Shown here one piece after another: positions 29,690-58,358 of a DNA stretch of 64,000 bases (the first letter of the stretch is position 1; each line of letters begins with the position of its first letter). The stretch comes from Oxalicibacterium faecigallinarum. GTDB taxonomy: Bacteria; Pseudomonadota; Gammaproteobacteria; Burkholderiales; Burkholderiaceae_D. The notes under the pieces are model-generated. The model saw only the letters and a list, made by a program, of their open reading frames with translations. It had not been told where the DNA came from and did no database searches. The stretch spans positions 1-64,000 of the forward strand of contig NZ_BMDI01000003.1 in NCBI RefSeq assembly GCF_014635705.1, written 5' to 3'. The position numbers and the translations under genes are program-made.

Positions 29690-29728
29690 GGGCTACCTTT
29701 TCTCCAGATGGTTGCTTGTTGATGGCAC

Positions 29729-33001: not shown

Positions 33002-33035
33002 GGTCAAACCGTTTCACTTGAAAGATGAAAGGGAC

Positions 33036-33082: not shown

Positions 33083-33083
33083 A

Positions 33084-33109
33084 CGGCATGCGATGCAAAT
33101 CGCATGCCG
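33084..33109. repeat. Perfect 11-bp hairpin just after glgA
   Basis: Arms CGGCATGCGAT and ATCGCATGCCG enclose a 4-nt loop, seven bases past the glgA stop. No T-run follows, so it may stabilise or partially terminate the glgA message rather than end it. Confidence 0.6.
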
Positions 33110-33116
33110 GTAATTT

Positions 33117-35684: not shown

Positions 35685-35707
35685 GGCATGGCCCGCAGCA
35701 GTGATGG

Positions 35708-39858: not shown

Positions 39859-40888
39859 GGGTCGGTGCCTCGCTTTGATCAGCAGCGCTGGGGTCCTTCT
39901 CTCCGTCTTCGTCACCGTATTCGGTTTCGAACGAACCTGCATCGAGACCGTTTTCGCGCAGCCATCGTACAAGCACGGCGACCTGACCGTGCGTGACCAT
40001 CACACGTTGCGCTTCGGTGGCGCGAATCGCCTGCATCAGGCCCGGCCAGTCGGCATGGTCGGACAGGACAAAGCCGCGATCAACGGCGCGTCTTCGGCGC
40101 GCCCCGCGCAATTGCATCCAGCCGCTGGCGAAGGAATCGCTGTAGTCGCCGAACCGGCGCATCCAGGTGGAGCCGCCGGCAGAAGGTGGGGCGATGACGA
40201 TGGCATTGCGGTAAAAGGCCTTGTCCTTGATCTCGCTTGCCAGATAGACGTCAGGCAGCTTTACGCCCGCTTCGCGATATACGCGATTCAACGGCTCAAC
40301 GGCGCCGTGGCAGACGATTGGGCCGATGCTGGTATCGAGTCCGTGCAGGATGCGTTGTGCCTTGCCAAACGCATAGCAAAACACCACGCTGCAACGGCCG
40401 TTGTCTGCATTGCGCCGCCACCATTGATTGATGTCGTCGAATATCCGTTGTTGCGGTTGCCAGCGGTAGATGGGCAGCCCGAAGGTGGATTCGGTGATGA
40501 AGGCATGACAGCGGACGGGCTCGAAGGTGGCGCAGGTGGCATCGGGTTCGACCTTGTAATCGCCAGAGGCCACCCAGATTTCGCCCTTGTGTTCCATGCG
40601 TACTTGTGCGGAACCGAGCACATGACCAGCCGGGTGCAGCGAGATGCGGACGCCATTATGTTCGATCGTTTCGCCATAAGGCAGGGTGTCGAGCGAGATA
40701 TCGCCAAGACGGGCGCGCAGAATACCCGCGCTTTGTTCGGTTGCCAGATACTTTGTGTGACCGACGCGTGCGTGGTCAGAATGCCCGTGCGTGATGATGG
40801 CACGCGCAACAGGACGCCATGGGTCGATATAGAAATCACCAGGGACGCAATAAAGCCCTTCCTTTCTCGCCACCACCATGTCGCTCAT
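39851..40888 (-). CDS. Ligase-associated DNA exonuclease (metallo-beta-lactamase fold)
   Basis: 345 residues from the ATG at 40888 (GGAGAAACC upstream). THGHSDHARVG (His34, His36, Asp38, His39) is the metal site. PAGHVLGSAQVRMEH and VASGDYKVEPDATC follow the beta-CASP/CPSF-like family, and FVLSDHADWPGL and VMVTHGQVAVL stand in the C-terminal part. It is the first of four co-transcribed repair genes, expected to trim ends before ligation. An in-frame upstream extension of 48 codons lacks family character. Confidence 0.9.
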   Translation of the reverse strand: MSDMVVARKEGLYCVPGDFYIDPWRPVARAIITHGHSDHARVGHTKYLATEQSAGILRARLGDISLDTLPYGETIEHNGVRISLHPAGHVLGSAQVRMEHKGEIWVASGDYKVEPDATCATFEPVRCHAFITESTFGLPIYRWQPQQRIFDDINQWWRRNADNGRCSVVFCYAFGKAQRILHGLDTSIGPIVCHGAVEPLNRVYREAGVKLPDVYLASEIKDKAFYRNAIVIAPPSAGGSTWMRRFGDYSDSFASGWMQLRGARRRRAVDRGFVLSDHADWPGLMQAIRATEAQRVMVTHGQVAVLVRWLRENGLDAGSFETEYGDEDGEKDPSAADQSEAPTHA

Positions 40889-41054
40889 GGTTTCTCCGAT
40901 CAATGCCCGCTTAACAGAGGTATCGCGAATCTTTATATAAGGTTCGTTTTGCAGATTGCCAGTCGCTGCGGGGAAGGTCTGTACGCGCATTAACAGAATG
41001 AGGTAGAGATCGGCCTGCATGGTGTTGTTCACATCAAAAAGAATCCTCCAACGA

Positions 41055-43608: not shown

Positions 43609-43638
43609 AAAAGGGCGCTCACCATGAGCGCCCTTTTT
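43609..43638. terminator. Bidirectional terminator between rhlE and the glycan operon
   Basis: Arms AAAAGGGCGCTCA (43609-43621) and TGAGCGCCCTTTT (43625-43637) enclose three bases, with A and T tracts at the ends. It serves both convergent transcripts; the glycosyltransferase stop codon overlaps its right edge. Confidence 0.9.
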
Positions 43639-46600
43639 AATCCGGCAGCCAGGCCTTGCGCCACGCCAGCAGATTGTCATCTGCCAGCATCCAGTTTCTG
43701 CGCACGATGGCCTGCAAGGCATCGCCGCGTCGCGCGTTCTCTTGCGGATCGGCAAGGTGCATGCGGATCGCATTGACCCATTCACTGAAACGATTCTTCA
43801 CACGTGTTGCCGGCAGATCGTCGTATTGGTAACAGCGGACATCGCTGCAGATGACAGGGAAGCCGCAAGCGCCATATTCGAGCAAGCGCAAATTGCTTTT
43901 GCATTGATTAAAGAGATGATCTTCTACCGGTGCCAATGCCAGATCGAGGTTGAGATCGGCTAGGGCTTGCGGATACTGCTGGATCGGTATGCCCGCATGC
44001 AGTTCATGAATGTAAGGACGTAGTTTGTCCGGACACATCCCGAAGAACACCCACTCGACTTCGTTGGCCAGTTCCCTGACAACATCGGCGATCAGTTCCA
44101 GATCGCCGCTATGACTGTTGCCACCCGCCCAGCCGACACGTGGCTTGGTCGAGGTGTGCCGCTTACCTTGCAAATTGCCCCACCAGTCCGCAGGCAGACG
44201 ATTTTCGATTACGCGGATGTCGGCATGCAGACCGGCAAACGCTTCTTTCAACGCATCGGTAGAGACGACAAAGCGATCGACATGGGCCAAGCCTTGTCTT
44301 ATGCGCTTCAAGACATCTTTGTCTATGTTTTGCTTGTTGATGTTCTTCATCGACAGATTGGGCAGATAGTCGTCCAGTTCGTACACTTTGAACGCATTTG
44401 AAAACTGTTTCATTCTGCGTAACGCTTCGATGCGTTCTGGCGAAGTAGGGCGCTGCATTACAAGGACATCTGGCGCAAACCGCTCCAGCGTGGTCGGTGA
44501 CAGGATCTGGCTGGAAAGTGTGCCGTCGATCAGGCCCGCATTGCACATGGCAAGTGTGGGCTGGATGATGCGGTAATGGCCACAGCCATACGGATCGGCA
44601 TGGTGGGCCAGTACGACAGGCAAAGGGCGCCAGGCTTGCAAGGGGCGCCACGCCAGCTGTGGTGCAGCCAGCTTGAAGCCTTCGTTGTCTTGCAGAGAAA
44701 AACCGGGATTGTAGGCCGGGTCACGCGCAAGTACGGGGAGCCAGCGCGCATACATTGCATCTTCCTCGGCAGAGCCGACCGGCCTGGTAGGTGGCATGTC
44801 CATCAGTAGTCGCGTACGCGGCGTCCAGACATTGAGGAAGCCGGCTTGTTGCAACTTCAGGCAAAGATCGACATCAGTCCAGCGCGAGAGCAGCGGCTCT
44901 TCATCGAATCCGCCTGCTTCCATGAACAAGGTGCGGCGCAGAAGCAGACATTCCGCGCTCAAAGCCGAATAGTTCTGATCGAGTCGCAAGCGCTGCATAT
45001 AGCCGTTGTCATCATGCGCCAGTCCCTCGAATGCACTGCCCGCCGGGCTGTTGAGTCCGAGCAGCAGGCCGGCATGACGTATTTTGCCGTCGGCAGACAA
45101 CAGCTTGGCACCGACTGCGCCTACTTCCGGCCGCAAGGCGTGATTCAACAGTTGTTGAAGCCAGTCCTTATGCAGTACGGCAGCGCCATCGCCGAGCCAG
45201 AGCAGAAAATCACCACGCGCCTGCTGGGCTGCTTCATTACGTAGCCGCGCATCGGAAACGCTTTCGGAAAAACGCAGAACACGCAGTTGTGCCGCCTGAA
45301 TCGCTTCAATACCAGCCAGCCAGTTACGCATATCTGCAGCCTGATTGCCGTGATCCAGCAGCAGTACTTCGTAATTCGTGTACTGGGTGTTTTCCAGCAG
45401 GCTCTCCAGACAGCGCTGTGCCTGCGGCAGGCGATCCTTTACGATCACCAAAATGCTGACAAATGGCTGTTGCGTGTGACCGTAATCAATTTCGTAGCAG
45501 CGCGGAAAATGGCTACGGATGCTTGCTTGCGGATAGCCACGATTGTTCAGATGCTGCGCAATGGCCACCTGCTCATCCGCATGTTCTTGCATGCTGGATG
45601 CATTGGCAATCAACAGGGGCTCGCTGACGTGCGCAATGCAGCCCAAACCAAACTGCTCGATCAAGCGCAATTGATACGCCAGTTCAAATGCACGACCGTT
45701 TGACGACGAAAAGCCACCTTGTTCCACTAAGGCTGTACGACGGAAAAGCCAATGCGGTGACATGCTTGCCGGAAAACTGAGCAGCAGATCGAGATTGGTA
45801 TCCGGACGCAGCAGCACGCCTAGTTCGTCATCGTTCAGACGAACGAGTTCATCTGCATAAACGGCCTGACAGCTATCCGGCAGGATCGGCAGATCGAGCG
45901 CAACCATCAGCAGCCCGCTTTGCAAAAATTCACTGCCTGCTTCTGCGACAAGGAGCCAGTCTGCTTGCGATCTCGCCAGATAATCGTTGATCGCAGTCAC
46001 CGGATGCGTATGGTCTTCTAGCGTGATGACCGTGACCTTCTCATCGCAGTCTGTGTGAGGCTGTGTGGTGAACACCACGATCTCAATGTGGCGATACAGG
46101 TTGACCCGTTCAAGATGATCGAGCGACCGCTTGAGTGCATCCGATGCATCGGGTGCATCACCTTGATTGAGCAACATGACGGCAATACGCGGGCCGCCAT
46201 TCTGCTCGGCAAGGCGTTGGTTGATTAGTGCCTGCTCGGCGGGAATCGGTCTGCGTGCCTCCAGCCAGGAAGATAAAGACACACTGCCTAAGCCGACGGC
46301 GCGTCGTAACGCATCCAGCAGGTTGATCGGCTTGAATGTCCGTGCTTTCAGACGCGTGATGGGGGCCACGCTGACAAACCGGTTGTCTCCCGATGTGCGA
46401 TACCATCCCAGATCGCGTATCGCTTGTCGAAAGTCGGCGTGCCCCTGATCGCCAATGCCAACCTTGTCACGGCCTGCCTGACTGAATTGTGAGTTGGATA
46501 CGCGGAACTTGGTTAATGGCTTGGAGAGGAAAGCTAGATTGCCGCGTTGTAGCAGCTTGGCGTACAAGGCCAGATCACCAACCCAATGGATCATCTTGCC

Positions 46601-47170
46601 GTTGAGCGACATCATCTGCATGTCGATCTCTTTAAGATCAGCACTGCGTGCCATGATGCAACTTGGCTCACCAATGAAATTGATGGTGTGATCGCCAAGG
46701 AAGGAAATCAGTTCCTTGCCGTTGATGAGGACATCGCCTGAAAAAGGGAAGGAAGTCGCCAGAATGTCGGGAAGTGGCTCGCCTTCCTCATTAATGCGTT
46801 GTCTGCGGGAAGATGCGAGTACGACGTCCGGCTCGTTCTCCATTGCGGTGACCAGTTCGGCAATGCATTCTGGTTCAAGTACATCGTCGTCATGCAAAAA
46901 CTTGATGTACTTGCCTTGCGCGTGTCGAATGCATTTGACTGTATTGGTGAGTTCACCAATTTGATGTCTGTTCTTGATATAAAGAATCGGCAAGCTGGTG
47001 CTCGCTCTTTTTTTCTCGACAAGTTCGGCAATGCGGCCATCCGCACTGTCATCACAGATAACCAGTTCGAGTGAAGGATAGGTTTGATTCAATACGCTAT
47101 CAAGCGCCTGTTCCATGTACTGAAACTTATAGGCAGGAATGATGATGCTGACAATAGTCTCTACGCTCAA
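43637..47170 (-). CDS. Multi-module glycosyltransferase (GT2-GT2-like-GT2-GT4-like)
   Basis: 1,177 residues. Module 1 (about 1-280) is a GT2 enzyme: VSIIIPAYKFQYMEQALDSV and FLHDDDVLEPECI with the DxD-type metal site. Module 2 (about 325-560) has a GT2-like fold but no clear DxD. Module 3 (about 567-815) is again GT2 (VSILVIVKDRLPQAQRCLES; WTDVDLCLKL). Module 4 (about 845-1177) is GT-B/GT4-like (RVGWAGGNSHSGDLELIADV; CKSNLRLLEYGACGFPVICS). Such long enzymes occur as flagellin or O-antigen glycosyltransferases. The frame opens with TTG at 47170; AAGG lies 11 bases before it. It is the last gene of the operon, 60 bp beyond the FkbM fusion. Confidence 0.88.
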   Translation of the reverse strand: MSVETIVSIIIPAYKFQYMEQALDSVLNQTYPSLELVICDDSADGRIAELVEKKRASTSLPILYIKNRHQIGELTNTVKCIRHAQGKYIKFLHDDDVLEPECIAELVTAMENEPDVVLASSRRQRINEEGEPLPDILATSFPFSGDVLINGKELISFLGDHTINFIGEPSCIMARSADLKEIDMQMMSLNGKMIHWVGDLALYAKLLQRGNLAFLSKPLTKFRVSNSQFSQAGRDKVGIGDQGHADFRQAIRDLGWYRTSGDNRFVSVAPITRLKARTFKPINLLDALRRAVGLGSVSLSSWLEARRPIPAEQALINQRLAEQNGGPRIAVMLLNQGDAPDASDALKRSLDHLERVNLYRHIEIVVFTTQPHTDCDEKVTVITLEDHTHPVTAINDYLARSQADWLLVAEAGSEFLQSGLLMVALDLPILPDSCQAVYADELVRLNDDELGVLLRPDTNLDLLLSFPASMSPHWLFRRTALVEQGGFSSSNGRAFELAYQLRLIEQFGLGCIAHVSEPLLIANASSMQEHADEQVAIAQHLNNRGYPQASIRSHFPRCYEIDYGHTQQPFVSILVIVKDRLPQAQRCLESLLENTQYTNYEVLLLDHGNQAADMRNWLAGIEAIQAAQLRVLRFSESVSDARLRNEAAQQARGDFLLWLGDGAAVLHKDWLQQLLNHALRPEVGAVGAKLLSADGKIRHAGLLLGLNSPAGSAFEGLAHDDNGYMQRLRLDQNYSALSAECLLLRRTLFMEAGGFDEEPLLSRWTDVDLCLKLQQAGFLNVWTPRTRLLMDMPPTRPVGSAEEDAMYARWLPVLARDPAYNPGFSLQDNEGFKLAAPQLAWRPLQAWRPLPVVLAHHADPYGCGHYRIIQPTLAMCNAGLIDGTLSSQILSPTTLERFAPDVLVMQRPTSPERIEALRRMKQFSNAFKVYELDDYLPNLSMKNINKQNIDKDVLKRIRQGLAHVDRFVVSTDALKEAFAGLHADIRVIENRLPADWWGNLQGKRHTSTKPRVGWAGGNSHSGDLELIADVVRELANEVEWVFFGMCPDKLRPYIHELHAGIPIQQYPQALADLNLDLALAPVEDHLFNQCKSNLRLLEYGACGFPVICSDVRCYQYDDLPATRVKNRFSEWVNAIRMHLADPQENARRGDALQAIVRRNWMLADDNLLAWRKAWLPD

Positions 47171-47230
47171 TTGAATCGATACCTTAAAAGATTGAGAAGT
47201 TGCGAATTATCCAGAATCGTGCGGTGATGA

Positions 47231-49045
47231 TCAGGACAATGAGGTATTGCAAAATACAGCATCGATGACACGGCAGAATCCTTCTGCGTCGACGCTGGCA
47301 GAAAGGCAGGTTTGCAGAATGAAATTATGTTCCTGCAAAAACGCGAACAGCTCTCGACAAGTATAAGACTCTTCAAATCGTTCAATGACTGATACTTCGA
47401 GGACGAGATATTTTATTTTTGATAAAGACGCAACGGCGCCTTTTAAAACTTCCAGCTCGTATCCTTCCGTGTCGATTTTTAACAGGATTGGGCCGTCGAT
47501 ATTCTGAAATTCAGGAAAGAGCGTATCCAGTTTGCGCAAGGACACAGGCATCTGCTCGATTTCTTCGCTGCCGGTGTCTCTGAGCGGGCTGCTCTTCAGC
47601 AAAGAGGTCAGAATGGGCCAGTCTTTGCGGTAGTTGATTGTTGATTCCTGATCCTGGCTTGAGAGTCCGACAGGGAAATACTGACTGCTGGGGAATTGCA
47701 TCTGCAACGCCTGAATACGTTCTTTAAATAATGGTACCGGCTCGATAAAAATCACATGTTTTGGCTTTATGTGATTGAAGAGATCCGGTGTGCCATTGGC
47801 GACGCCAACATCAATGACTGTATGAATGTCTTCAAGAAGTTGAAGATTTCGCCACTTTAAAAAGTTCGGCTGGGTGAGTGGTGCCGTTGCTTTAGCTTGT
47901 TCACCATAGCGCATCCAGGATGCAATCGATGAGGCATTGCTCGCGCGCGACGGGCTCTCTGGATGCCAAGAAGCGACGGTAGGCTCATCCAGCAACTGGG
48001 TGATCCAGGTGAGTGAGGCATCGCCGGATAGTGCTCGGCAATGCAGTCGATGTGCGTACTTCTCATTCTGTGATGTGGCAAAGGTGCGGAAGGTGGCTTC
48101 TTCGCGTTTGTTGACCAACACGTATCGCCATGGGCCCCTTGGCGGTGTCTCTTGATGAGAGAGCGATGTCAGTGCGACAGTAGGATGCAGGTCACGCCAC
48201 GCGAGAAGTGGAAATTCTCGGTGCAATTCGTGCATGCAATCTTCCGGCACACCGGAGCCCCAATGCTCGATTACGAACAAGCCAATCTGGTCAGGATGAG
48301 CGTCGGCCCATAGTCCCAGGAGAAGATTGATTTCTTCCGGTGAAAAATCATGCCGCAGAAACCAAGCCATGCCCCAATCCAACGCATGCCAAGTGGGTGG
48401 CATGCGCACGACTGGTACGCGATCCAACTGCAGTGCCAGCGCTGCTGCCAAGCGGTGAGCGCCGTTCAGTATTCTGTTATTGCAGTCAATTGGGATCGCA
48501 AATTTGTCTGGAAAACCGTTTTTTTGAATAGAGGCGAGCAGACCTTGGAAGCACAGTTCGTAGTCTTCCTGAGACGTCTTGCTTGATGATTCTGGTTCAA
48601 CACCGTTTGTACGATGAAGAATATGCCGACGATAGAGTGCATGTGCAATGTCGGCTTTTGTCGCAGCAGGGTTGAGCAGGCTTCTTGCAAAGAGCAGTTT
48701 GACCGCCACATCCAGTCTATCTGTTTGCCATATCTCATTGGGATCAAGGTACTCGATGGCACCAGGTGCCTCTGACAAGGCGCGCACCTCAAACTCTGCA
48801 TTGATGCTTCCCAACGATTGGGCAATGCCATATGTTTTCTTTGCCCGCTCACGGTCATGCAGTCTTTGCAATCTTGCCAGTTCGAGATGCCACTGGGCAT
48901 TGGATGGTTGCAGCCTGACTGCCTGATGGAGATAGGCCTCTGCCTCTTTCTCTTTGCCTTGCTTCAGCAACAGCATTGCGGATTCGCCAGGCTGGGATGC
49001 TGAAAGCGTTTGCGTGTCAGAAGCTGATGGATGAGCTTGCATCAT
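47231..49045 (-). CDS. TPR / ParB-like / FkbM methyltransferase fusion protein
   Basis: 604 residues in three parts. Residues about 18-60 form a TPR-like helix pair (ESAMLLLKQGKEKEAEAYLH, followed by AVRLQPSNAQWH). Around 180-215, PIDCNNRILNGAHRLAAAL and QLDRVPVVRM look like the ParB/sulfiredoxin-like nuclease fold motif. Residues about 400-600 are an FkbM-type methyltransferase (VIDVGVANGTPDLF; LLKIDTEGYELEVLKGA; VLEVSVIERFEES), which usually O-methylates a sugar hydroxyl. Two adjacent ATGs begin the gene, overlapping the upstream stop by four bases. The function of the middle part is unknown; I have not seen this order described. Confidence 0.8.
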   Translation of the reverse strand: MMQAHPSASDTQTLSASQPGESAMLLLKQGKEKEAEAYLHQAVRLQPSNAQWHLELARLQRLHDRERAKKTYGIAQSLGSINAEFEVRALSEAPGAIEYLDPNEIWQTDRLDVAVKLLFARSLLNPAATKADIAHALYRRHILHRTNGVEPESSSKTSQEDYELCFQGLLASIQKNGFPDKFAIPIDCNNRILNGAHRLAAALALQLDRVPVVRMPPTWHALDWGMAWFLRHDFSPEEINLLLGLWADAHPDQIGLFVIEHWGSGVPEDCMHELHREFPLLAWRDLHPTVALTSLSHQETPPRGPWRYVLVNKREEATFRTFATSQNEKYAHRLHCRALSGDASLTWITQLLDEPTVASWHPESPSRASNASSIASWMRYGEQAKATAPLTQPNFLKWRNLQLLEDIHTVIDVGVANGTPDLFNHIKPKHVIFIEPVPLFKERIQALQMQFPSSQYFPVGLSSQDQESTINYRKDWPILTSLLKSSPLRDTGSEEIEQMPVSLRKLDTLFPEFQNIDGPILLKIDTEGYELEVLKGAVASLSKIKYLVLEVSVIERFEESYTCRELFAFLQEHNFILQTCLSASVDAEGFCRVIDAVFCNTSLS

Positions 49046-51603
49046 TGCGACGGTTCCTGCTTGGCGAGCACATAAAAACCTCGTTCGATAATGTTGTCAT
49101 CTTTCAGCTTTCCGCAAGACTGTATGACGAAGCCTGCATTGAGGAAGTGACGCACATTTTGAAAAAAATCCTTGTCATTGGTATCCAGACGATTGCTTTC
49201 CCAAATCAGAATGCCGCCCGGTTTTAACAACGCGTAGACTGCTTTTGCATAGTCAGCGATCGACATGCCGATCCAGACATGCACGGCAAAAGAGAAGACA
49301 ACATTGAACTTGTTTTCTTTGTTACGCAAAGTGAAGTCGCGAAAGCTTTCGCATTCAAACTGGCAGTTATCTATGCCACGTACATTTGCCATTTGCCGTG
49401 CGATGTCGATGAGCAGTTGGTTATGATCAAAGCCGTAGTAGCTTTTTATTTTTTCTGAAAGAGCGAGTCCGAACATCCCGATGTTGCAACCGATATCGAG
49501 GACGTTGGCATGTGCAGGCAGCCATTTCTCAAGTCCATATTCGTACAAGCGTTGTAACGTCGGGCGCTGACCTTTAATCCCCCAGGTTTCGTGTGCTTGA
49601 TAGAGATCGCCTCGTCCGAATTGCTGCGGGTTAGCTTCGATCTTGGACCGAATAGTCGCAATACAGGCGAACCAGTCTTCATCACTGATCACAAGAGATG
49701 ATGGAGATATGCAATTGGATGCAGGTTTTTTGCTCGAATCTGGTGGCGATGTTTGTAACAACTTCCACGCATCGAGTTCAGCGGTGGTGAATTTTTCTTT
49801 TGCTTCGCGCTGCCAAGTGATGGCTTGCTTGATTACTTTGGCTGGGCTACCTGCAAGTACGGTTTGTTCCTCTTTATAGGGGCGATTAAGAAGGGCGCTT
49901 GCGCCGATCATGTTGTTGCTTGCGACGATCGTTCCTTTGAGGATCGTGACCCCTTTTCCTACCCATACATGATCACCGATGACGATATCTTCTGGTGGGT
50001 TAATGCGTTGTCGGTTTGCGATGTCGACAAGCGAATGCCCATCCGTCGTGCGCATCTCGATATCGTAAGAGAACATGCAATCGGTACCGATCGTAATGTT
50101 CTTTCCCTCGTGGCATTTGATGTCGACGCGCGCGAAAGTTGAATTGCGGCCGATTTGTAATGTGCTGCCGGATCCCCAGATGTAAATCTTTCCCACGAGA
50201 CGAACATCTTGATCGATATGAATTTGATTATTGTGGCCAGTAACGTCGACGAGTCCGTCAAAGTTCACACCTTCTGCGATAGTAATGTGGTTGCCTTTAC
50301 CCCGAATGGTGATCTTTCCTTGAACCTGAGCACTGGATGGCCACGTGGTGTGGTTTCCTTCATCACAATCCAAAATGGTACTGCGATTTCGGAGCAAGCC
50401 TTGCTCCAGTGTTTCGACGCGATGGCGAAGAAATCCGCCACCAGACCGTTCAAACGCTTCGATCCAAAAATTGCGTTGCCATAGCTTGAACTTGGAGTAA
50501 TCCCACCATGTATCGAGCAATTCACGTCCGTAGCTCGGCGTAAGCGTAGGGAGTTGCGGCACTCTTGGCGCTGTTTGATCCGGGGCCAGGATTTGGTGCC
50601 AGAAAGATGGGGCCAGAATAGTTTGGAAATGTACTTGCAGATATCGCCCGTTTTGATAGGCATCTTGCGGCCATGCAAGCGGTACGAGAGGCTGGTGCAG
50701 CCAGTGTGTCGTCTTTCCGAAAAATTCCGCTTCTTGCAATACGCCAGATGAGATGGATACCAGTTCAGTACAAGCCGAACTGCTTATGATTTGATAGCTA
50801 TTGTTTAGACAGATCGACAGCGGGCGTTGCATGATGGCTTCCAGCGCTTTGCGTTCTTCGCTTGAAAAGCCATCATCAAAAGGGTGAGGTTTGTACAGAA
50901 TCTTGCGCCATGGTTTTGATGCTAACTTCAACAGATCATTGGCAAAATCCTGGCAGCGCAAATGTTTTCCTGGTGCACCAATGATGGCTGCATCGAATGA
51001 TGTTTGCCCGACGTAGATTAACGTGTCATCCAAATCGAGAGGATATCTGTCTTGACGATCCAGCGCCCATTGTTGCGCAAGCGTCGACGCTGTCATTGCG
51101 GTCGCTTCTAAACGGATTTCCTCCTCGGGAACAGCGTGTTTCTGAATGCGTTCGTAAATTTCAGGATTATTCGTATCGATCGCAATGTAAAAGTCGCGGG
51201 CAAAACGTACAGGTGAAATTCGAAGATCGATGTAATCGATATTTGACTCGATGCTCCATGCCTTGAACCATGCGGGCATCTCTACGCCCAACAGCAGAGT
51301 ATTTTGGGGAATGCATGTGCGTAAATAGACCCGAGCAGATTCAGGGATGGTGAAGTTCAAATGTTCCCAGGAGGATTGTCCTTCTTCGTAGGCCAATCGT
51401 TTGAATTCTTCCCAGTCAAACTTGCTGGCACCATGTTGCACGATTGCGGAAGGGATTCCGGTGCCGTGTTCAAACAAGACAGTTTTTTGAATCGCTTGGC
51501 GTATCGGCTCACTGACTAATGTAAATAGCGGGAGCGGGAATGACCCCAATAGTTTTTCTGGGCGTATAAGGTCTTCGACGCAGGCGATGCAATTCCACTT
51601 CAT
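49042..51603 (-). CDS. Three-module glycan protein: N-terminal glycan-type domain, left-handed beta-helix, methyltransferase
   Basis: 853 residues. Residues about 1-370 include VLFEHGTGIPSAIVQHGASK and KILYKPHPFDDGFSSEE, reminiscent of capsule/polysialyltransferase-like GT-B proteins. Residues about 415-590 are a left-handed beta-helix with hexapeptide repeats (VWVGKGVTILKGTIVASNNM; AGSPAKVIKQ), as in acetyltransferases. Residues about 650-853 form a class I methyltransferase (VLDIGCNIGMFGLALSEKI; ALLKPGGILIWESNR). It could both transfer a sugar or acyl group and methylate it. The ATG at 51603 has only a weak ribosome binding site. Overlaps the FkbM fusion by four bases. Confidence 0.8.
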   Translation of the reverse strand: MKWNCIACVEDLIRPEKLLGSFPLPLFTLVSEPIRQAIQKTVLFEHGTGIPSAIVQHGASKFDWEEFKRLAYEEGQSSWEHLNFTIPESARVYLRTCIPQNTLLLGVEMPAWFKAWSIESNIDYIDLRISPVRFARDFYIAIDTNNPEIYERIQKHAVPEEEIRLEATAMTASTLAQQWALDRQDRYPLDLDDTLIYVGQTSFDAAIIGAPGKHLRCQDFANDLLKLASKPWRKILYKPHPFDDGFSSEERKALEAIMQRPLSICLNNSYQIISSSACTELVSISSGVLQEAEFFGKTTHWLHQPLVPLAWPQDAYQNGRYLQVHFQTILAPSFWHQILAPDQTAPRVPQLPTLTPSYGRELLDTWWDYSKFKLWQRNFWIEAFERSGGGFLRHRVETLEQGLLRNRSTILDCDEGNHTTWPSSAQVQGKITIRGKGNHITIAEGVNFDGLVDVTGHNNQIHIDQDVRLVGKIYIWGSGSTLQIGRNSTFARVDIKCHEGKNITIGTDCMFSYDIEMRTTDGHSLVDIANRQRINPPEDIVIGDHVWVGKGVTILKGTIVASNNMIGASALLNRPYKEEQTVLAGSPAKVIKQAITWQREAKEKFTTAELDAWKLLQTSPPDSSKKPASNCISPSSLVISDEDWFACIATIRSKIEANPQQFGRGDLYQAHETWGIKGQRPTLQRLYEYGLEKWLPAHANVLDIGCNIGMFGLALSEKIKSYYGFDHNQLLIDIARQMANVRGIDNCQFECESFRDFTLRNKENKFNVVFSFAVHVWIGMSIADYAKAVYALLKPGGILIWESNRLDTNDKDFFQNVRHFLNAGFVIQSCGKLKDDNIIERGFYVLAKQEPSQ

Positions 51604-51677
51604 TCTTGGCTCAATAAAAGTAAACGCAAGTAACTTCTTTTTTGCATGGCGATGTAGTCATGCATACGTTATCAGTC

Positions 51678-52301
51678 TCAGTTTCCGTATGTATGGATAG
51701 GCTGATCGTAACGCAGGTCATAAATCGTTTTGTTAGAGATATCCGAGGCATACAGTTGTGGCCAACCTAGTTCACAAGTTCTACCGATGGTGATGCCATT
51801 TCTAAGTACTGCGCCCATGCGGATAGTGCAATGTGTTCCGATTTCGACATTTGATCCTACCTGCACACCTTGTTCAATCCAGCAGGAGGATTTGATTTTG
51901 CTGCCTGATCCAATCTGGGCACCAGGATGAATGACGGTGTTGTATTCAATCTGTGTTCCATGCCCGATGACGGCACCATCACCGACAAAGACATTGGGCC
52001 CTATCCGTACATTCGCGGCGACAAGTGATCGAGGACTGATAAAAGTGGCAAGAGAGATGCCGCGTTCAGCAACGGCTCTCATGAGTTCGGTACGTTTGAA
52101 ATTACCGAACCGCTCATCAAATGCCACAAATGCCAAACCATCACCAGGCGATAGATGCTGGATTGCAGCCAGATCGAAGGAGTAATCTGAGTTTTGAGGA
52201 ATAAAGACTTTCTCGATGGTCAGATCTGGGCGAGCCTGACAGCAAGCGTCGTAAACAATATCCAGATAGTCGCTGGCACCAATGACCCATTTACACTCCA
52301 T
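51678..52301 (-). CDS. NeuD/PglD-like sugar O/N-acyltransferase (left-handed beta-helix)
   Basis: 207 residues. The N-terminal ~90 residues are a small Rossmann-like domain starting MECKWVIGASDYLDIVYDA. The C-terminal part consists of hexapeptide repeats (NVRIGPNVFVGDGAVIGHGT; AQIGSGSKIKSSCWIEQGVQ) ending in a short coil. The family transfers acetyl or other acyl groups from CoA or ACP to amino sugars such as bacillosamine precursors. The typical catalytic His is probably in the GHGTQIEYNTVIHPGA segment. GGAGACAGAAG precedes the ATG; the gene overlaps the Rieske gene by 11 bp. Confidence 0.8.
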   Translation of the reverse strand: MECKWVIGASDYLDIVYDACCQARPDLTIEKVFIPQNSDYSFDLAAIQHLSPGDGLAFVAFDERFGNFKRTELMRAVAERGISLATFISPRSLVAANVRIGPNVFVGDGAVIGHGTQIEYNTVIHPGAQIGSGSKIKSSCWIEQGVQVGSNVEIGTHCTIRMGAVLRNGITIGRTCELGWPQLYASDISNKTIYDLRYDQPIHTYGN

Positions 52302-53502
52302 CTTCTGTCTCCATGATGGTCGAGTACCACCGTTCGATCAGACGATTGGTGGATTCATAAGCACCTTGGTGCGGCATGGGGGCTTCTAAATGCAGCGCGG
52401 ATTGCACTTTCTCCAAAATATCAACGTCTTCTCCCACGATGAGTTTTCCGTGGTGCATGCCAGATAGGAGAACCTGCGATGACCATTGATAACGGCGTGT
52501 CTTACGGGCCGTAAATCGCCATATCTCCAAATCGGTACGCTCTGGTGAAACAGGGATATGGTGCTCAATGACAAACGAATGGCCGCCATCACCGCTGGCT
52601 ATGTGCAGATTTGGAAACGCCAGCCAGTTAAAGTACGCATCGTCTTGTGATTCTTCAGCGACTGCCTGATTGTGACCAACACTCTGCGTAGTTTTTCCGG
52701 GTACCTCAGAAAAACGCCAGCGTTTGACGAAATCATGCCAGCCAAATGATTTGAGTTCGTCGATTTTTCCTTCGGGACCGCCGTAGCTGAAACGACGCAT
52801 CTCTTTGCGCATTGCCTCGGGGGAGGTATCACTCATTGCGTTGCAGGATTCTGCAGCTGCCTGATGATTGACAACCGGTTTAAAACTCGCGGCAGGTGCC
52901 AAGCTCTTTGGATGAATGAACGCGACATGGTTTGCATCTCGCAGGTTTTCGTAGATCAGTTTCCAGTTGAATTTGCAATGCCAGGTCGTCACCATGACTT
53001 CGGTGTCGTAGGCATTTGAACTGTCTTCCAGCAAGGATAGGAATGCGGATGAAAACTGTTCTTCAAGCGGAAATGGATTGGCATCCATGTTGATGAGCAA
53101 AATGTTTCCTACTATGCGCAGGGGAAATTCACGCAATTTAAGTGATGCTCTTTCATCCGCATCAAACTGATAAAGACTCTCGCAATGAGGAATTTTGTCA
53201 GGCGTTCCATCCGAGCCATATTTCCATGCATGGTAAGGGCAGACGAGTGGGCGACAGCCGGTGAATGCAGACTGTAATGGCGCGCTGCGATGCAGGCAAA
53301 CATTTTCAAAAGCACGTAGTTCGCCATTGAAATTTTGCACTACTACCGGAATGCCGGCGATTTTGCGAGTAATGAAATTATTGTGCTGGGACAGTAAAGT
53401 CTTCAGTCCTGCAAACAGCCAGACTTTTCGAAATATTTTTTTCTGCTCTTGTTCAAAAGTGTCTGCGCTTAAGTAATAACGAGGGTGCATGCGGGATAGC
53501 AC
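52291..53502 (-). CDS. Rieske non-heme iron oxygenase, alpha-subunit type
   Basis: 403 residues. The Rieske [2Fe-2S] motif is CLHRSAPLQSAF with the second pair in CPYHAWKYGSDG (about residues 68-95). The catalytic domain has NLRDANHVAFIHPKSL, the D-x2-H-x4-H iron-binding pattern with the bridging Asp. This is a complete ring-hydroxylating-oxygenase alpha subunit, though no ferredoxin or reductase gene is near. Within a glycan operon it may hydroxylate or demethylate a sugar or acyl substituent. GTG at 53502 with AGAGG nine bases upstream is preferred; an ATG four codons later is possible. Confidence 0.83.
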   Translation of the reverse strand: MLSRMHPRYYLSADTFEQEQKKIFRKVWLFAGLKTLLSQHNNFITRKIAGIPVVVQNFNGELRAFENVCLHRSAPLQSAFTGCRPLVCPYHAWKYGSDGTPDKIPHCESLYQFDADERASLKLREFPLRIVGNILLINMDANPFPLEEQFSSAFLSLLEDSSNAYDTEVMVTTWHCKFNWKLIYENLRDANHVAFIHPKSLAPAASFKPVVNHQAAAESCNAMSDTSPEAMRKEMRRFSYGGPEGKIDELKSFGWHDFVKRWRFSEVPGKTTQSVGHNQAVAEESQDDAYFNWLAFPNLHIASGDGGHSFVIEHHIPVSPERTDLEIWRFTARKTRRYQWSSQVLLSGMHHGKLIVGEDVDILEKVQSALHLEAPMPHQGAYESTNRLIERWYSTIMETEDGV

Positions 53503-53514
53503 GGTTCTAGCCTC

Positions 53515-54174
53515 TCATAATTCATTTTGTTGTTTGCTGAAGATGATCCGTGCCGGATTGCCAAAAACGGTTGATGCAGCAGGCACGTCCTTTAGCACAA
53601 CAGCACCTGCGCCGATGATTGCACCATCACCGACTTTGATGCCTGGCAAGATGGTTGCATGCGGATGCACAGTCACGTTTTCACCAATACAGACGCCGCC
53701 ACCAATCACAGTCATTGCGCCTATTTGGCAATAACGCCCAATGCGCACATCGTGACCAAATACCGTTAGCGATTGAATGTGTACATGGTCGCCGATGTTC
53801 ATGTCGGGACCGACAATGACGCCTGTCGACAGAACGCAGCCGTTTCCAATACGCGTACTTGGAGGGATGTACATATCGCGAGGTATGACACTGAGAAAGA
53901 CACCACCTTTTCGCTCAATGATTTCTGCGTAATGGCGACGTGCATCTACGTGGCCTTGCGCACAAATAAAAAGTTCATTCTCTTTTGGTATGTGGCTTGA
54001 TGGGTCACCTTCTATGCGCAGGTCTGCTCCATAACCATCCAGCATATGCTGGCGGCTATCAAGAAAACCTTCTATCACCCATTGCCAGCCTGATTCGCGC
54101 ATGCCTCGGGCCAAGATCAATGTCTCGCGTCCGCATCCACCTGCACCAATAATCCATACTTTTTTAATACTCAT
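53515..54174 (-). CDS. NeuD/PglD-like sugar acyltransferase
   Basis: 219 residues. It begins with a nucleotide-binding-like segment (VWIIGAGGCGRETLILARGM). From about residue 95 hexapeptide repeats follow (STRIGNGCVLSTGVIVGPDM; IGDHVHIQSLTVFGHDVRIG; VTVHPHATILPGIKVGDGAI). The end NPARIIF matches the sialic-acid NeuD/PglD class. The HDVRIG segment holds the probable catalytic His. It overlaps the upstream SDR-like gene by four bases. Two related acyltransferases flanking one Rieske gene suggest two acylation steps. Confidence 0.82.
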   Translation of the reverse strand: MSIKKVWIIGAGGCGRETLILARGMRESGWQWVIEGFLDSRQHMLDGYGADLRIEGDPSSHIPKENELFICAQGHVDARRHYAEIIERKGGVFLSVIPRDMYIPPSTRIGNGCVLSTGVIVGPDMNIGDHVHIQSLTVFGHDVRIGRYCQIGAMTVIGGGVCIGENVTVHPHATILPGIKVGDGAIIGAGAVVLKDVPAASTVFGNPARIIFSKQQNEL

Positions 54175-54779
54175 CGAGTGGGCTCTCCAGTGAGTACCAT
54201 ATTGCTTCCGGTAACCCAGCGGCTGGCAGGGGCAAGTAGGTAAATGGATGCATTGGCAAAGGCATCTGCATCTTTGCTTGAGCCCGATGCGCGCGTGGTT
54301 ACCGTGTTGACGCGAATTTTCATCGAAGCGTACTCTAGGGCGAGGGTAACTGCCAAGGTGTCGATTCCACTTTCCATGCTGAGGTAATAGCCACCTTGTT
54401 CAGTGCGTAAATGAGCGATACAGTGTTTCTCAAAAACGATGGCGGCACCGCTACGAAGAATTTGATTGCGTAATAGATTGTTTGCAAGTATTGCAGGCGC
54501 AACCAGACGTTTCATCGCGAGATGTTGAATGTCTTCGTCTTGTAGTTTGTAAACCGGGGCAAGAATTGGCGCAGCGCAGTACAGCAATCCATCGCACGAT
54601 GCCGGTTCCAGCGTATCTGCCACGCCAGGCTCATCTAGTACGATGACGCGTGCACCTTGTTTACTAAGAGCGTGTTTGGCTTGCTTGCCATTCATCGTGC
54701 TGGCACCTGCGAGCGCAATGTTTTTTCCTATTAAGGAAAAGGCAGGGCCTGACGAATATGTACCTGAAGCTATGTTCAT
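54171..54779 (-). CDS. Degenerate short-chain dehydrogenase-like protein
   Basis: 202 residues, shorter than a normal SDR. The glycine-rich motif is altered (NIALAGASTMNGKQAKHAL instead of TGxxxGxG). The active-site region reads YYLSMESGIDTLAVTLALEY: where SDRs have Tyr-x-x-x-Lys, the Lys is missing. The C-terminal WVTGSNMVLTGEP is still SDR-like. It probably has lost catalysis and may partner the intact SDR encoded just upstream, which it overlaps by four bases. The codon and base usage does not differ visibly from neighbours. Confidence 0.75.
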   Translation of the reverse strand: MNIASGTYSSGPAFSLIGKNIALAGASTMNGKQAKHALSKQGARVIVLDEPGVADTLEPASCDGLLYCAAPILAPVYKLQDEDIQHLAMKRLVAPAILANNLLRNQILRSGAAIVFEKHCIAHLRTEQGGYYLSMESGIDTLAVTLALEYASMKIRVNTVTTRASGSSKDADAFANASIYLLAPASRWVTGSNMVLTGEPTR

Positions 54780-55540
54780 AAGTTCATGCCGATAGAAATA
54801 CCGCCATCTATCGTAAAGTAGCTTTGATTGATGGCTTGGCTGGCATTACTTAAATAGAAAATCGTTGCATTCGCAATATCTTCTGGTTCACCCATGCCGA
54901 GAGGCGTCCATTCAGTGCGCGTATTCTGGTTTGCGCCGGCCAAGTTTAGTTTTTCAAGCATAGGTGTTTGAACATAACCTGGGGCAATGCAGTTGACCCG
55001 AATGCCTTGCTTGGCGAGATCTTTGGCCATGGAGCGTGTGGCGCCCAAAAGGGCTGATTTGCTGGCAGAGTAGGCCGAGCTAGCTGCAGGACCGGCATAT
55101 GAAGCTACGGCAGCAATAAATATGATTGACGCCTCTGATGCGATCTTTTTCCGAGATATCAGGTTACGGGTTAATAGAACGGGCGCGAATGTATTGTCGC
55201 GGAATGTATTCTCTACATGTGCTTGATTGATCAGGTGAAACGGGACTAATTTTGATGTTCCTGCTGCATGCACTAATCCATTTAATGCGCCTGCTTTCGA
55301 TATCAGATGCTCAACGTCTGCTGGCTGATTCAAATCTGCTGGGATTTGCGAGTGGTCTTTACCTGCCAACGCACTGAACGTGGATGCAAGACGTTCGGCA
55401 TTCCTTCCAGTGATGATGAGTTGCGCGCCCATTTCTGAACATGAGATAGCGATTTGACGACCAATACCCGATGATGCGCCAGTGACAAGAATACGTTTTC
55501 CAGTCAGGCTGAAAGGATTTCCGGGATTGAGAGTTTCCAT
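54776..55540 (-). CDS. 3-oxoacyl-ACP reductase-like SDR (FabG type)
   Basis: 254 residues from the ATG at 55540. ILVTGASSGIGRQIAISCSE binds NADP(H), and LNGLVHAAGTSKL has a modified NAG site. The catalytic Tyr and Lys are in SSAYSASKSALLG, and the C-terminus YFTIDGGISIGM is classic. With the neighbouring ACP and FabH-like enzyme it should reduce a 3-oxoacyl-ACP to 3-hydroxyacyl-ACP. The gene starts one base after the ketosynthase stop. A longer in-frame start at 55573 would overlap that gene and is less likely. Confidence 0.87.
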   Translation of the reverse strand: METLNPGNPFSLTGKRILVTGASSGIGRQIAISCSEMGAQLIITGRNAERLASTFSALAGKDHSQIPADLNQPADVEHLISKAGALNGLVHAAGTSKLVPFHLINQAHVENTFRDNTFAPVLLTRNLISRKKIASEASIIFIAAVASYAGPAASSAYSASKSALLGATRSMAKDLAKQGIRVNCIAPGYVQTPMLEKLNLAGANQNTRTEWTPLGMGEPEDIANATIFYLSNASQAINQSYFTIDGGISIGMNL

Positions 55541-55541
55541 A

Positions 55542-56582
55542 TTACGACTCGACCAAATCCGGAAATTTGGCATCCTTCATGTCAATCAATGCCGTGCCCC
55601 ATGAAAGACCGATTCCAAAGCCGGAAAGCAGCACGCGATGCTTGCTGGATTCCAATTGCTTGTTAATTCTTGCCGTGATCGTGATCGGCAGTGACGCGCC
55701 GCTGGTATTGCCAAAGTCGCGCAGCGTAGAGGGGACTTTCTCGACCGGAATACCAAGTTTTTTACGGATTGTTTCGTTGATCATGCGGTTGGCCTGATGA
55801 AAGACAAAGTAATCGACTTCATCTTTACTTGCGCCTGAATAGGCCAACAATTTTTCTACTGCTGGTGGTACACGCTGCGTAGAAAAACTCAGCACCGCAG
55901 GGCCGTCGAGTACCAGATCCGTGGCGCGATGCCAGTGATCGTTTTCATCTTCGCGATATTTGATCAGATGTTGCACATCAACTGGCTCTCGTTGTCCGCC
56001 AACTGGAAGCATGATGGCTTTATAGCCACTGCCGTCGCTGTTCAGATCGAAATACATTGGCGGCGCATTCTCATCGAATTCCAAAGCGGTTGCCGTACCT
56101 GCATCCGAGAAAATTGGATCGTCCAGTGTTGCGCTGCGATCCCCAACGAGCAGCAGCCCTTTTTTGATGCCGCCAGCAGAAATCATCGAGCCGAGTAAAT
56201 GAATGCCGAATGGGTATGCCGAGCAGCCTAGATTGACGTCGAATGCAATGGTTGTATGCGGCAGGCCAAGGCGGTCTTGCATGATGATGGCGGTTGCAGG
56301 GATCGGGTAGTCCGGTGATTGCGTGACGACAATCAACGCATCAATTTCTTCACGCTGCCATTGCAGGCTTTCCAGTAGCTTTTCAGTTGCATCAAACGCC
56401 AAATCGGAGAAACACTGCCATTTAGGCGCCATGCGGCGTGTTTCGATACCGATGTTGCGAACCAGACGTTCGCGGTCTGCACGAATTTGTGGTCTGCAGT
56501 CCGTCAGGTTTGAAACAATCTGTTTAGGGACGCAGCTGGCCATGCCGGCAAAGCGTACATTTTTCAGCGTGGAATTAGCCAT
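55542..56582 (-). CDS. Beta-ketoacyl-ACP synthase III-like enzyme (FabH type)
   Basis: 346 residues from the ATG at 56582. The thiolase-fold triad is visible: Cys near residue 120 in DVNLGCSAYPFGIHLL, His in VFHQANRMINE and Asn in FGNTSGASLPI. It is expected to condense an acyl-CoA with malonyl-ACP, here on the dedicated ACP encoded eight bases upstream. The product, once reduced by the next gene, would be a short 3-hydroxyacyl group such as 3-hydroxybutyryl. A housekeeping fabH role is unlikely given the glycan neighbours. The upstream in-frame extension lies inside the ACP gene. Confidence 0.87.
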   Translation of the reverse strand: MANSTLKNVRFAGMASCVPKQIVSNLTDCRPQIRADRERLVRNIGIETRRMAPKWQCFSDLAFDATEKLLESLQWQREEIDALIVVTQSPDYPIPATAIIMQDRLGLPHTTIAFDVNLGCSAYPFGIHLLGSMISAGGIKKGLLLVGDRSATLDDPIFSDAGTATALEFDENAPPMYFDLNSDGSGYKAIMLPVGGQREPVDVQHLIKYREDENDHWHRATDLVLDGPAVLSFSTQRVPPAVEKLLAYSGASKDEVDYFVFHQANRMINETIRKKLGIPVEKVPSTLRDFGNTSGASLPITITARINKQLESSKHRVLLSGFGIGLSWGTALIDMKDAKFPDLVES

Positions 56583-56589
56583 ATCTGCA

Positions 56590-56814
56590 TCAACCCAGCA
56601 GTTGGTAAAGATCCTGAATCGTCGATGCCTTTTGCAAGTTTTCTCCGGTGATGGTTTTTCCATATTCCAGATCGAACATGACAATCACGCCCAGCGCCGC
56701 CAGGGAATCCCATTCTGGCAGATCTTCCAGTTTGGTTTCTGCCGTAACGGCAACTGGTTCTTGAAAGTCGACGGCTTCGTTAAACTTTTCGATGAATGTT
56801 TCGATGTTATCCAT
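56590..56814 (-). CDS. Acyl carrier protein, specialised
   Basis: 74 residues from the ATG at 56814. Acidic four-helix ACP with the phosphopantetheine site DSL at Ser37 in LPEWDSLAALGVIVMF. It overlaps the aminotransferase stop by eight bases and is followed by the FabH-like gene after eight bases. Divergence from housekeeping AcpP (the site sequence is WDSLAA, not ADSLDT) indicates a dedicated carrier for the acyl group built by the two following enzymes. Confidence 0.88.
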   Translation of the reverse strand: MDNIETFIEKFNEAVDFQEPVAVTAETKLEDLPEWDSLAALGVIVMFDLEYGKTITGENLQKASTIQDLYQLLG

Positions 56815-57985
56815 GATGGTCCAGATGAGGGGAGAGTTGTTTGCGATGTGTTGCGGTTGCCTGGCGGGCAGCTTCGGCAATCCGTGTGATCTCGTCCGAC
56901 GAGAGAAAGAGTGAGAACGGCAGACCGATCAGGCCTGATGCAATGGATTCCGCAATAGGAACCGGCATCTTGATGGTTGGCGTGACCTGTTCTGCGTGCT
57001 TGTGTAATAAAGGTTGATACCAGCGTCGTGTGGCAATGTGCCGGGACTGGCAGATCTTTTCCATTCGATTGCGCGCGGGTTCTGCCATACGCACACAAAA
57101 AATGGTTGGCGCCGCAGGTGCCGAGCCGCTTTGCCACTGCAGTTTGTCGCCACAGGCTGCATCGAGGGTCTCTCGGTAGGTCCGATAAATCTTTTGCCGC
57201 TGCCCGGCATGCAGGTGCCATTGATCCAGACTGGCATGCGCGACTGCCGCGTGATACTCGGACAGTTTGGCATTGCTCCCGACAAAGGAGAGGTGGCCGG
57301 TTGGCAGACCTGCTTCGGGATCAAGATTGATGCCGAAATTGCTGAGCTGGCGTACACGCGCATTGATGGCTGGATTGCCACTGACGACAATGCCGCCTTC
57401 GCCTGCGGCCAATGATTTTGTTGCGTGCAGGCTGTAGATCACCGGGACATCGGCGGCTTCCACCCATTGACTGCCAAAGGCACCGGCGGCATCAATGACG
57501 ACTTCAATGCCGGTCTTTTTGCGGAATGCACTCCAGCGTTTTGTATCGTGTGGTTTTCCGAAGGCAGCGACGGCAAGTACGGCTGCGGCACCGGTTTGTG
57601 CTGCCACGTCTGAGGCAGTTTCCGGTGTCAGGAGCCAACTTTCCGGATCGATGTCGGCGATTACCGGGACATGGCCGGCGCGAATGATTGCGGTAAACGA
57701 TGCCACAAAAGTCAGGGCCGGCACGATGACTTTGCTCCCGGGGGGCAGACCCAGACAGTGCAGCGTCAGCTCCAGCCCCATGGTTGCGCTGCTTGTGGTC
57801 GTCACATGGATTGGATGCGAACAGTGCGCCTCAAACGAACTGGCGAGCCTGTTTTCCAGACTTTGATTCAAAGGACCGAAATTGGAGTAATGACGATTCT
57901 GATCGATTTGATCCAGATAGGGAGACAGCGCGCGACGATCAGGTAGTTGCGGTACCAAAAGAGGGATGATGCTTGGATGCTTCAT
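56807..57985 (-). CDS. DegT/DnrJ/EryC1/StrS sugar aminotransferase
   Basis: 392 residues from the ATG at 57985 (GGGAATG upstream). PLP-dependent type I-fold enzyme: TTTSSATMGLELTLHCLGL, VIVPALTFVASFTAII, VIDAAGAFGS and SLHATKSLAAGEGGI with the PLP Lys near 190. Relatives such as VioA/WecE aminate a 4-keto-6-deoxy-hexose nucleotide to the 4-amino sugar. It heads the operon. In-frame ATGs at 58147 and 58099 would lengthen it, but the extension has no family character. The amino group made here is the natural acceptor for the acyl chain made by the next genes. Confidence 0.88.
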   Translation of the reverse strand: MKHPSIIPLLVPQLPDRRALSPYLDQIDQNRHYSNFGPLNQSLENRLASSFEAHCSHPIHVTTTSSATMGLELTLHCLGLPPGSKVIVPALTFVASFTAIIRAGHVPVIADIDPESWLLTPETASDVAAQTGAAAVLAVAAFGKPHDTKRWSAFRKKTGIEVVIDAAGAFGSQWVEAADVPVIYSLHATKSLAAGEGGIVVSGNPAINARVRQLSNFGINLDPEAGLPTGHLSFVGSNAKLSEYHAAVAHASLDQWHLHAGQRQKIYRTYRETLDAACGDKLQWQSGSAPAAPTIFCVRMAEPARNRMEKICQSRHIATRRWYQPLLHKHAEQVTPTIKMPVPIAESIASGLIGLPFSLFLSSDEITRIAEAARQATATHRKQLSPHLDHHG

Positions 57986-58358
57986 GTAGTCATTCCCGGC
58001 AAGCCCTCTGTTGGCATGTAATGCGACGCTTTGTTTACCCGATTGTGGCAGGTGATGGTTGGGGCTGATCGGAGCACGCTGTCGTTTCATCGTCAGCATG
58101 TGTTCAATCCGGCTTGTGTCGGCACGCTTTCTGCGCGCGTTGAACATGTCGTCTATCGCGTTTAGTAATAGTGCCGCTTTTTTATGACACAAGCCTAATT
58201 GCTGCGACTATGCCTAGTCAAGCCCGTATGCATCTGGTTTCTGATGCTTACCCTTACTATCGGACAGGAATGCAAAAATTGAAGGGCGGAACAGAAATTC
58301 AAATGCCTGTCTTTTTATGAAATTGAGGGCTGATCTAGAGGTATCTCGCCGCTTGCCG
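57986..58358. other. 373-bp region upstream of the glycan operon
   Basis: No gene is evident. It holds a candidate promoter for the operon (58192-58221, minus strand). About 140 bp separate that promoter from the gluQ stop at 58359. No strong terminator for gluQ is seen. The minus-strand leader from the promoter to the aminotransferase start would be about 200 nt. Confidence 0.5.
58192..58221 (-). promoter_or_regulatory. Candidate sigma-70 promoter of the glycan operon
   Basis: On the minus strand TTGACT (58221-58216), an 18-bp spacer and TAGGCT (58197-58192). The -35 is good, the -10 poor. I looked for sigma-28 or sigma-54 patterns that would tie the operon to flagella and did not see a clear one. 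Confidence 0.3.

Follow-up and report, generated by a model that had tools for sequence, protein, structure and literature searches.

The 64,000-nucleotide stretch analysed here (positions 1 to 64,000, that is, the start of contig NZ_BMDI01000003.1, C3, in the 3.33-Mb genome of Oxalicibacterium faecigallinarum; hereafter the window) carries an eleven-gene operon at 43637-57985, which is probably a flagellin-glycosylation island of Xanthomonas/viosamine type that was acquired, with flagellin as its inferred acceptor. Directly shown are the gene set and order, the intact catalytic residues of the FabH, NeuD1 and Rieske proteins, the aspartate kept in a module that resembles transferases of 3-deoxy-D-manno-octulosonic acid (Kdo), an empty site in genus members, and the flagellar linkage of relatives.

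Open reading frame (ORF) reading and domain searches placed all eleven minus-strand ORFs where the original prediction had put them, on the same strand and in the same order. In the direction of transcription they encode DegT, an acyl carrier protein (ACP), FabH, FabG, a short-chain dehydrogenase (SDR), NeuD1, Rieske, NeuD2, mod853, an FkbM fusion (FkbM604) and the glycosyltransferase GT1177. From DegT to NeuD1 the junctions are an overlap of 8 bp (DegT/ACP), a gap of 7, an overlap of 32 or a gap of 1 depending on the start codon chosen (FabH/FabG), and two overlaps of 4; from NeuD1 to GT1177 they are a gap of 12, an overlap of 11, a gap of 74, an overlap of 4 and a gap of 60. Eight of the ten are thus overlaps or gaps of at most 12 bp, as had been claimed for most of them. 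The features are as follows.

58258..58283, minus strand: sigma-28 (FliA)-like promoter site, TTCAATTT-N11-TCCGATA(G), at a conserved position upstream of the island in four species.
56807..57985, minus strand: DegT-family aminotransferase, VioA/DesI-like (C4); Pfam PF01041, 8.9e-61.
56590..56814, minus strand: dedicated ACP of 74 aa with the DSL serine; translation, and PF00550 (PP-binding) at E=0.0016.
55542..56582, minus strand: FabH-like ketosynthase III (KASIII), the VioS/OrfC equivalent; PF08541/PF08545.
54776..55573, minus strand: FabG-like 3-oxoacyl-ACP reductase, the VioR/OrfD equivalent; PF13561, 1.5e-44.
54171..54779, minus strand: degenerate second SDR of 202 aa, with TGxxxGIG and YxxxK lost (YLSME).
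53515..54174, minus strand: NeuD1, a VioB/NeuD-type sugar N-acyltransferase; TIGR03570 above cut-off.
52291..53487, minus strand: Rieske non-haem iron oxygenase, with a possible GTG start at 53502; PF00355 and PF00848.
51678..52301, minus strand: NeuD2, a NeuD-like left-handed beta-helix protein accompanying the Rieske gene; sequence comparison.
49042..51603, minus strand: mod853, with a retaining-Kdo-transferase-like part (aa ~1-400), a hexapeptide acetyltransferase (aa ~480-600) and an S-adenosylmethionine (SAM) methyltransferase (aa ~690-820); PDB profile match, Pfam and NCBIfam.
47231..49045, minus strand: FkbM604, with tetratricopeptide repeats (TPR), a middle part and an FkbM methyltransferase; PF05050 at 1.3e-17, and PF13428.
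43637..47170, minus strand: GT1177, 1,177 aa, GT2 + GT2 + a GT-B-like C-terminus, in the VioT/OrfN position; Pfam, with the C-terminus matching PF13524 at E=4e-4.
43609..43639: bidirectional terminator-like hairpin, read from the sequence and common to the operon and rhlE.

Scanning named genomes with the Rieske alignment, we found the same block, among the best 80 of a longer list of matches, in Xanthomonas, Pseudoxanthomonas, Pseudacidovorax, Massilia, Acidovorax and others; this gene order kept across genera shows that the block is not a chance assembly, and the operon first predicted from a single sequence is real. In Xanthomonas and Pseudoxanthomonas it spans from FleQ, with RpoN before it, to FliE, and in Pseudoxanthomonas the flagellar genes continue to FliF; in Acidovorax sp. 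SUPP3334 the ACP gene is adjoined by fliC and fliD; and in a Massilia-type genome (G079) the block lies beside a PAS-response-regulator-GGDEF-fliC group, with fliC ~6.5 kb from the ACP gene, the same PAS-response-regulator-GGDEF group surrounding fliC in the window genome. Because the relatives are flagellar-linked in three independent lineages, which is the main evidence, flagellin is the proposed target, and the earlier view of a flagellin-linked target as the likely one gains from the closest relatives lying within flagellar clusters.

The block probably was acquired at a fixed chromosomal site. In the window it lies between rhlE and gluQ, with an intergenic region of ~370 bp on the gluQ side, and the guanine-plus-cytosine content of its middle is 48-50%, against 53-61% in most of the window, its two ends being less AT-rich than the middle. 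Three other genus members, G057 (Oxalicibacterium solurbis), G080 and G099, have the block adjoining rhlE as well, with gluQ on the other side in G057 and G080, where that side was read. In G022, G114 and G140 (L151-L153), rhlE and gluQ are direct neighbours with gaps of ~70-360 bp, and neither GT1177 nor the island type of FabH was found in these three genomes; G127 is also without the block, its rhlE-gluQ region ending at a contig edge. The whole block was therefore acquired, or else lost, in one piece at this site. Within the genus its ends are well kept (FabH 88-89% identity, ACP 85-91%, GT1177 68-69%) and its middle varies, with extra methyltransferases in G099 and a NeuB-like synthase plus a PseF-like cytidylyltransferase in G080. 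Near the empty site of G022 (L153), several extra kilobases including an SDR-like match lie between a LysR gene and kdsA. Separately, flagellins of the island-bearing genus members are 395, 482, 393 and 399 aa long and those of members lacking it 517, 512, 507 and 503 aa, and the flagellin central domain differs between the two sets of four (L013, L128-L134); the association of the island with a flagellin that differs and is mostly shorter was dropped as evidence, being phylogenetically confounded and possibly due to phylogeny alone.

DegT, ACP, FabH, FabG and NeuD1 fit the building of an acylated 4-amino sugar. The best NCBIfam match of DegT, the sole strong DegT match in the genome, is DesI, followed by PseC and ArnB, all of them C4-aminotransferases such as VioA, and two dTDP-glucose dehydratase (RmlB) genes elsewhere in the genome, both above the curated cut-off, could supply dTDP-4-keto-6-deoxyglucose. 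As in viosamine-type islands, the block has its own ACP, KASIII and 3-oxoacyl-ACP reductase: the ACP shares 51-91% identity with those at the same position in relatives within Pseudomonadota, and the Cys-His-Asn triad of FabH is invariant across the FabH alignment (A2). NeuD1 has VioB (7txp) as its nearest PDB relative, with the catalytic His aligned. The second SDR, rightly called degenerate before, has lost both the cofactor motif and the catalytic Lys, which are intact in homologues at the same position, and is likely a pseudo-enzyme. The acylated, methylated amino-sugar logic proposed for the operon is supported.

In the Rieske alignment (A1), the CxH...CxxH cluster, the iron ligands H187, H192 and D354 and the bridging D184 are all invariant, as expected of a Rieske oxygenase; the nearest characterised sequences, carnitine and glycine-betaine monooxygenases, are too distant to assign a substrate. 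CMP-sialic acid hydroxylase (CMAH) hydroxylates the N-acyl group of an activated sugar. This enzyme is of Rieske type (PMC9219854), and with it as precedent the island Rieske, whose gene sits after the acyltransferase gene, may oxidise the acyl chain or the sugar of an activated amino sugar. Instead it might N-oxygenate or demethylate the amino sugar, as the quaternary-amine substrates of its nearest characterised kin would suggest; we consider this possible and the less likely of the two, given the weak similarity to every characterised enzyme, the gene position and the CMAH precedent. A Rieske gene in such an island is not new, since XCV2007 was tabled in a Xanthomonas island in 2013 (PMC3826837); we came across no paper on its chemistry, and a literature search for Rieske proteins with flagellin glycosylation returned a single paper, which was irrelevant. 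NeuD2 had been named a second NeuD-like acyltransferase, which does not hold: no conserved His is present among 20 homologues, so the catalytic His is missing, and, L043 excepted, its gene comes after that for the Rieske protein in each locus read. For these two reasons NeuD2 is regarded as a putative Rieske partner rather than a normal acyltransferase. Two tandem Rieske-NeuD2 pairs occur in each of the islands of a bin (L034, 8222-11741) and an Acidovorax (L037, 8198-11690), which suggests two successive or alternative oxidations there.

No Pfam family covers the first 400 residues of mod853. Searched against PDB, a profile of this N-module with three members (A3) hit KrkA, a retaining Kdo transferase of PDB release 2026, at E=5.7e-27 over near-full chain length, and the Asp of VGQTSFD in mod853 falls in the same alignment column as D193 of KrkA, the residue changed in the D193C-Kdo adduct structure; L030 has Ser in this column, so the residue is not universal. 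None of the papers listed by the literature search contained KrkA. The AlphaFold model of the N-module is poor (mean pLDDT 49) and was not taken alone as evidence of fold, GT-B being the one expected of a retaining Kdo transferase; with it, Foldseek also pointed to KrkA, and the structural match to KrkA had Z 15.4 over 176 residues at 3.1 A. The first of the three modules of mod853 is retaining-Kdo-transferase-like, followed by the hexapeptide and methyltransferase parts. As KdsB was found above its curated cut-off within a Xanthomonas island (L027), a Kdo-type sugar in the glycans of such islands is plausible, and the CMP-Kdo of the window strain would come from the housekeeping pathway. None of the other islands read encodes a relative of FkbM604; the ParB-like domain once assigned to it was a motif seen by eye and is rejected, Pfam giving no ParB even at E<=10. 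The two methyltransferase domains of the island, candidate counterparts of the 2-O-methyltransferase VioM, both lie within these fusions. GT1177 shares 68-69% identity with its genus mates and 57-58% with the Xanthomonas glycosyltransferase adjoining fliE, and, judged by its size, position and GT2 content against descriptions of VioT and OrfN, is a candidate transferase of that type.

The histories of frame and middle differ. A tree of the Rieske proteins split with full support into two deep types, B comprising G080 of the window genus (L019), Xanthomonas hortorum pv. cynarae (L062) and a Pseudogulbenkiania bin, and A the rest including the window; in the FabH tree of the same islands, G080 grouped with its own genus and L062 with Xanthomonas. 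This discordance (L019 and L062 versus L014, L030 and L027) implies that the Rieske type was exchanged between orders independently of the frame. The spread of two deep Rieske types over Oxalicibacterium and Xanthomonas regardless of the core, which points to cassette exchange, is what is new here. FabH of the window genus is 80-84% identical to those of five Xanthomonas islands and 68-73% to those of Massilia, and forms with the five a supported group of nine rows (95/99), in line with transfer. At E<=1e-100 the FabH profile matched the window genome alone among 369 in a class-wide sample, so this FabH type is sparse, and a plasmid search with FabH gave nothing above 42% identity. Similar ~425-aa proteins without NCBIfam match, encoded beside CMP-ulosonate genes in L027 (13544-14818) and L019 (7774-9057), are candidates for a further ulosonate transferase.

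In a region before the block with otherwise little conservation, four species have TTCANTTT-N11-TCCGATA(G/T) in common, and the genus has TAAACTTT-N11-TCCGATAA at its fliC promoters. The pattern TWMANTTT-N11-TCCGATA occurs in the window genome at only two places, before the island and before fliC, the pattern itself being derived from those same two sites. A sigma-28-like promoter upstream of the island is therefore suggestive.

Several observations weigh against flagellin as the acceptor or against the Xanthomonas kinship. Single-site scores of the sigma-28-like site fall within the shuffled range. The island is on contig C3, between rhlE and gluQ rather than fleQ and fliE, and contig C1 carries the flagellin gene and another gene with a flagellin domain (FlgL-like); the flanking flagellar genes that the original prediction proposed to look for are thus absent here and present in relatives (FleQ-FliE, fliC/fliD). 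Most loci in Massilia, Pseudacidovorax and others show neither a flagellin nor a cap gene within the flanks read. DegT shares only 26% identity with its Xanthomonas counterpart and is of another lineage. Flagellin is present in all nine family genomes with the island FabH, which is weak support as it is present in 114 of 145 anyway.

Acylated 4-amino-4,6-dideoxyglucose (Qui4N) is also present in O-antigens. The operon could decorate the O-antigen or outer core of lipopolysaccharide instead of flagellin, with the Kdo-transferase-like domain and the amino sugar serving a lipid-linked glycan, which would suit Kdo as a lipopolysaccharide sugar, the KdsB within the Xanthomonas cassette and an island away from the flagellar genes. 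We hold this to be unlikely, since Pfam and a check of membrane spans revealed no flippase, polymerase, ligase or exporter (Wzx/Wzy, ABC) among the eleven genes and no membrane-spanning protein, the one short hydrophobic stretch of DegT being enzyme core, and the closest relatives lie within flagellar clusters. Far less probable still is a secreted acyl amino-sugar natural product: ACP, ketosynthase, Rieske oxygenase and methyltransferases do occur in natural-product clusters, but the block has no transporter or resistance gene, the terminal large glycosyltransferase is kept up to the fliE-side end in Xanthomonas, and the variable middle of the relatives contains CMP-ulosonate genes.

In the flagellin-glycosylation reading, whose substrates, late-step order and acceptor are all inferred, RmlB (presumably with RmlA) elsewhere in the genome would provide dTDP-4-keto-6-deoxyglucose, which DegT would convert into a 4-amino sugar. 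FabH would build a 3-oxoacyl chain on the dedicated ACP, reduction by FabG would give a 3-hydroxyacyl group, by analogy 3-hydroxybutyryl, and NeuD1 would place this on the 4-amino group. Rieske and its putative partner NeuD2 may then oxidise either the sugar or its acyl chain, a Kdo-type ulosonic acid as well as acetyl and methyl groups may be added by the fusions mod853 and FkbM604, and GT1177 would move the finished sugar, in the cytoplasm, onto the flagellin glycan.

Tentatively, the whole may amount to a flagellin glycan with a Rieske-oxidised N-3-hydroxyacyl 4-amino sugar joined to Kdo or another CMP-activated ulosonic acid, with beta- and gamma-proteobacteria exchanging Rieske-NeuD2 and transferase cassettes as interchangeable glycan types; we rate this bolder picture as doubtful. 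If true, a sugar of the lipopolysaccharide inner core (Kdo) serves on flagella, and two flagellar chemistries, neither of which we found on record, are predicted in Xanthomonas and soil bacteria alike: Kdo on flagellin, and the oxidation of an activated acyl amino sugar by a Rieske enzyme. Flagellar glycan loci would then trade parts across orders, as cassettes that can be swapped within a constant frame. Flagellin glycans influence plant and animal immune recognition.

Elsewhere in the window, 15209-34673 (minus strand) holds a large alpha-glucan/trehalose cluster with alpha-amylase-family enzymes, 4-alpha-glucanotransferase, GlgB, a TreS-maltokinase-like fusion, GlgE and glycogen synthase. 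At 35067-41032 (minus strand), a row of metallophosphoesterase, Lhr-type helicase, ATP-dependent DNA ligase and metallo-beta-lactamase exonuclease resembles the known Lhr-ligase-exonuclease-phosphoesterase repair cluster, the last three genes being named by sequence reading.

Among known systems, the Xanthomonas fleQ-fliE island is the closest kin found, rather than the Pseudomonas islands first named, which were compared by description. In X. campestris pv. vesicatoria it runs from XCV1999 (FliE) through XCV2000 (glycosyltransferase), XCV2003 (KdsB), XCV2007 (Rieske), XCV2008 (acetyltransferase), XCV2009-2010 (short-chain dehydrogenases), XCV2011 (KASIII), XCV2012 (ACP) and XCV2013 (aminotransferase) to XCV2014 (FleQ) (PMC3826837). 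XCV2000-XCV2013 and the window island have in common the core order aminotransferase-ACP-KASIII-SDR-SDR-acetyltransferase-Rieske-NeuD2-variable-giant glycosyltransferase, including the Rieske-NeuD2 pair and the terminal giant enzyme, with identities of 75-84% for FabH, 60-63% for Rieske (type A) and 57-58% for the glycosyltransferase; they differ in flagellar-cluster placement, DegT lineage (26%) and middle genes. Lying between rhlE and gluQ, the window island is a variant, not a member, of this type. X. campestris and A. avenae are reported to glycosylate their flagellin (PMC8364246), and flagellin glycosylation in X. oryzae requires a putative acetyltransferase, PXO_00987, possibly the island's own, according to Li 2015 as cited in PMC5550985.

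The retaining Kdo transferases KrkA/WbbB/KpsC are like the first module of mod853 in profile and kept nucleophile Asp, and differ in that this module, with a putative Kdo donor, is fused to acetyl- and methyltransferase modules. Burkholderia cenocepacia flagellin carries Qui4N(3-OHBut), a beta-proteobacterial flagellin glycan equal to the sugar predicted for the island core, and no oxidised or Kdo-bearing form appears in that report (PMC12355684). By position and function, DegT, ACP, FabH, FabG, NeuD1, methyltransferase and GT have counterparts in orfA, B, C, D, E, G and N of the P. aeruginosa PAK a-type island, whose lettering gives the same DegT-ACP-FabH-FabG-acyltransferase...giant glycosyltransferase order; unlike the window island, the PAK island lies upstream of the flagellin gene (PMC3958885). 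In P. syringae, VioA, ACP, VioS, VioR, VioB, VioM and VioT (1,173 aa), which match PAK OrfA, B, C, D, E, G and N, make and attach N-3-hydroxybutyryl-2-O-methyl-viosamine, with the N-3-hydroxybutyryl viosamine glycan cap proven by mutants and mass (PMC3927599). The ACP/FabH/FabG/aminotransferase set was correctly named for both Pseudomonas islands, with the gene order of PAK matching too. Compared by description, the P. syringae island lacks a Rieske, NeuD2 or Kdo-transferase-like gene among its seven listed, and has the same set of C4-aminotransferase, ACP, KASIII, reductase, VioB acyltransferase, methyltransferase and 1,173-aa transferase, likewise located away from fliC.

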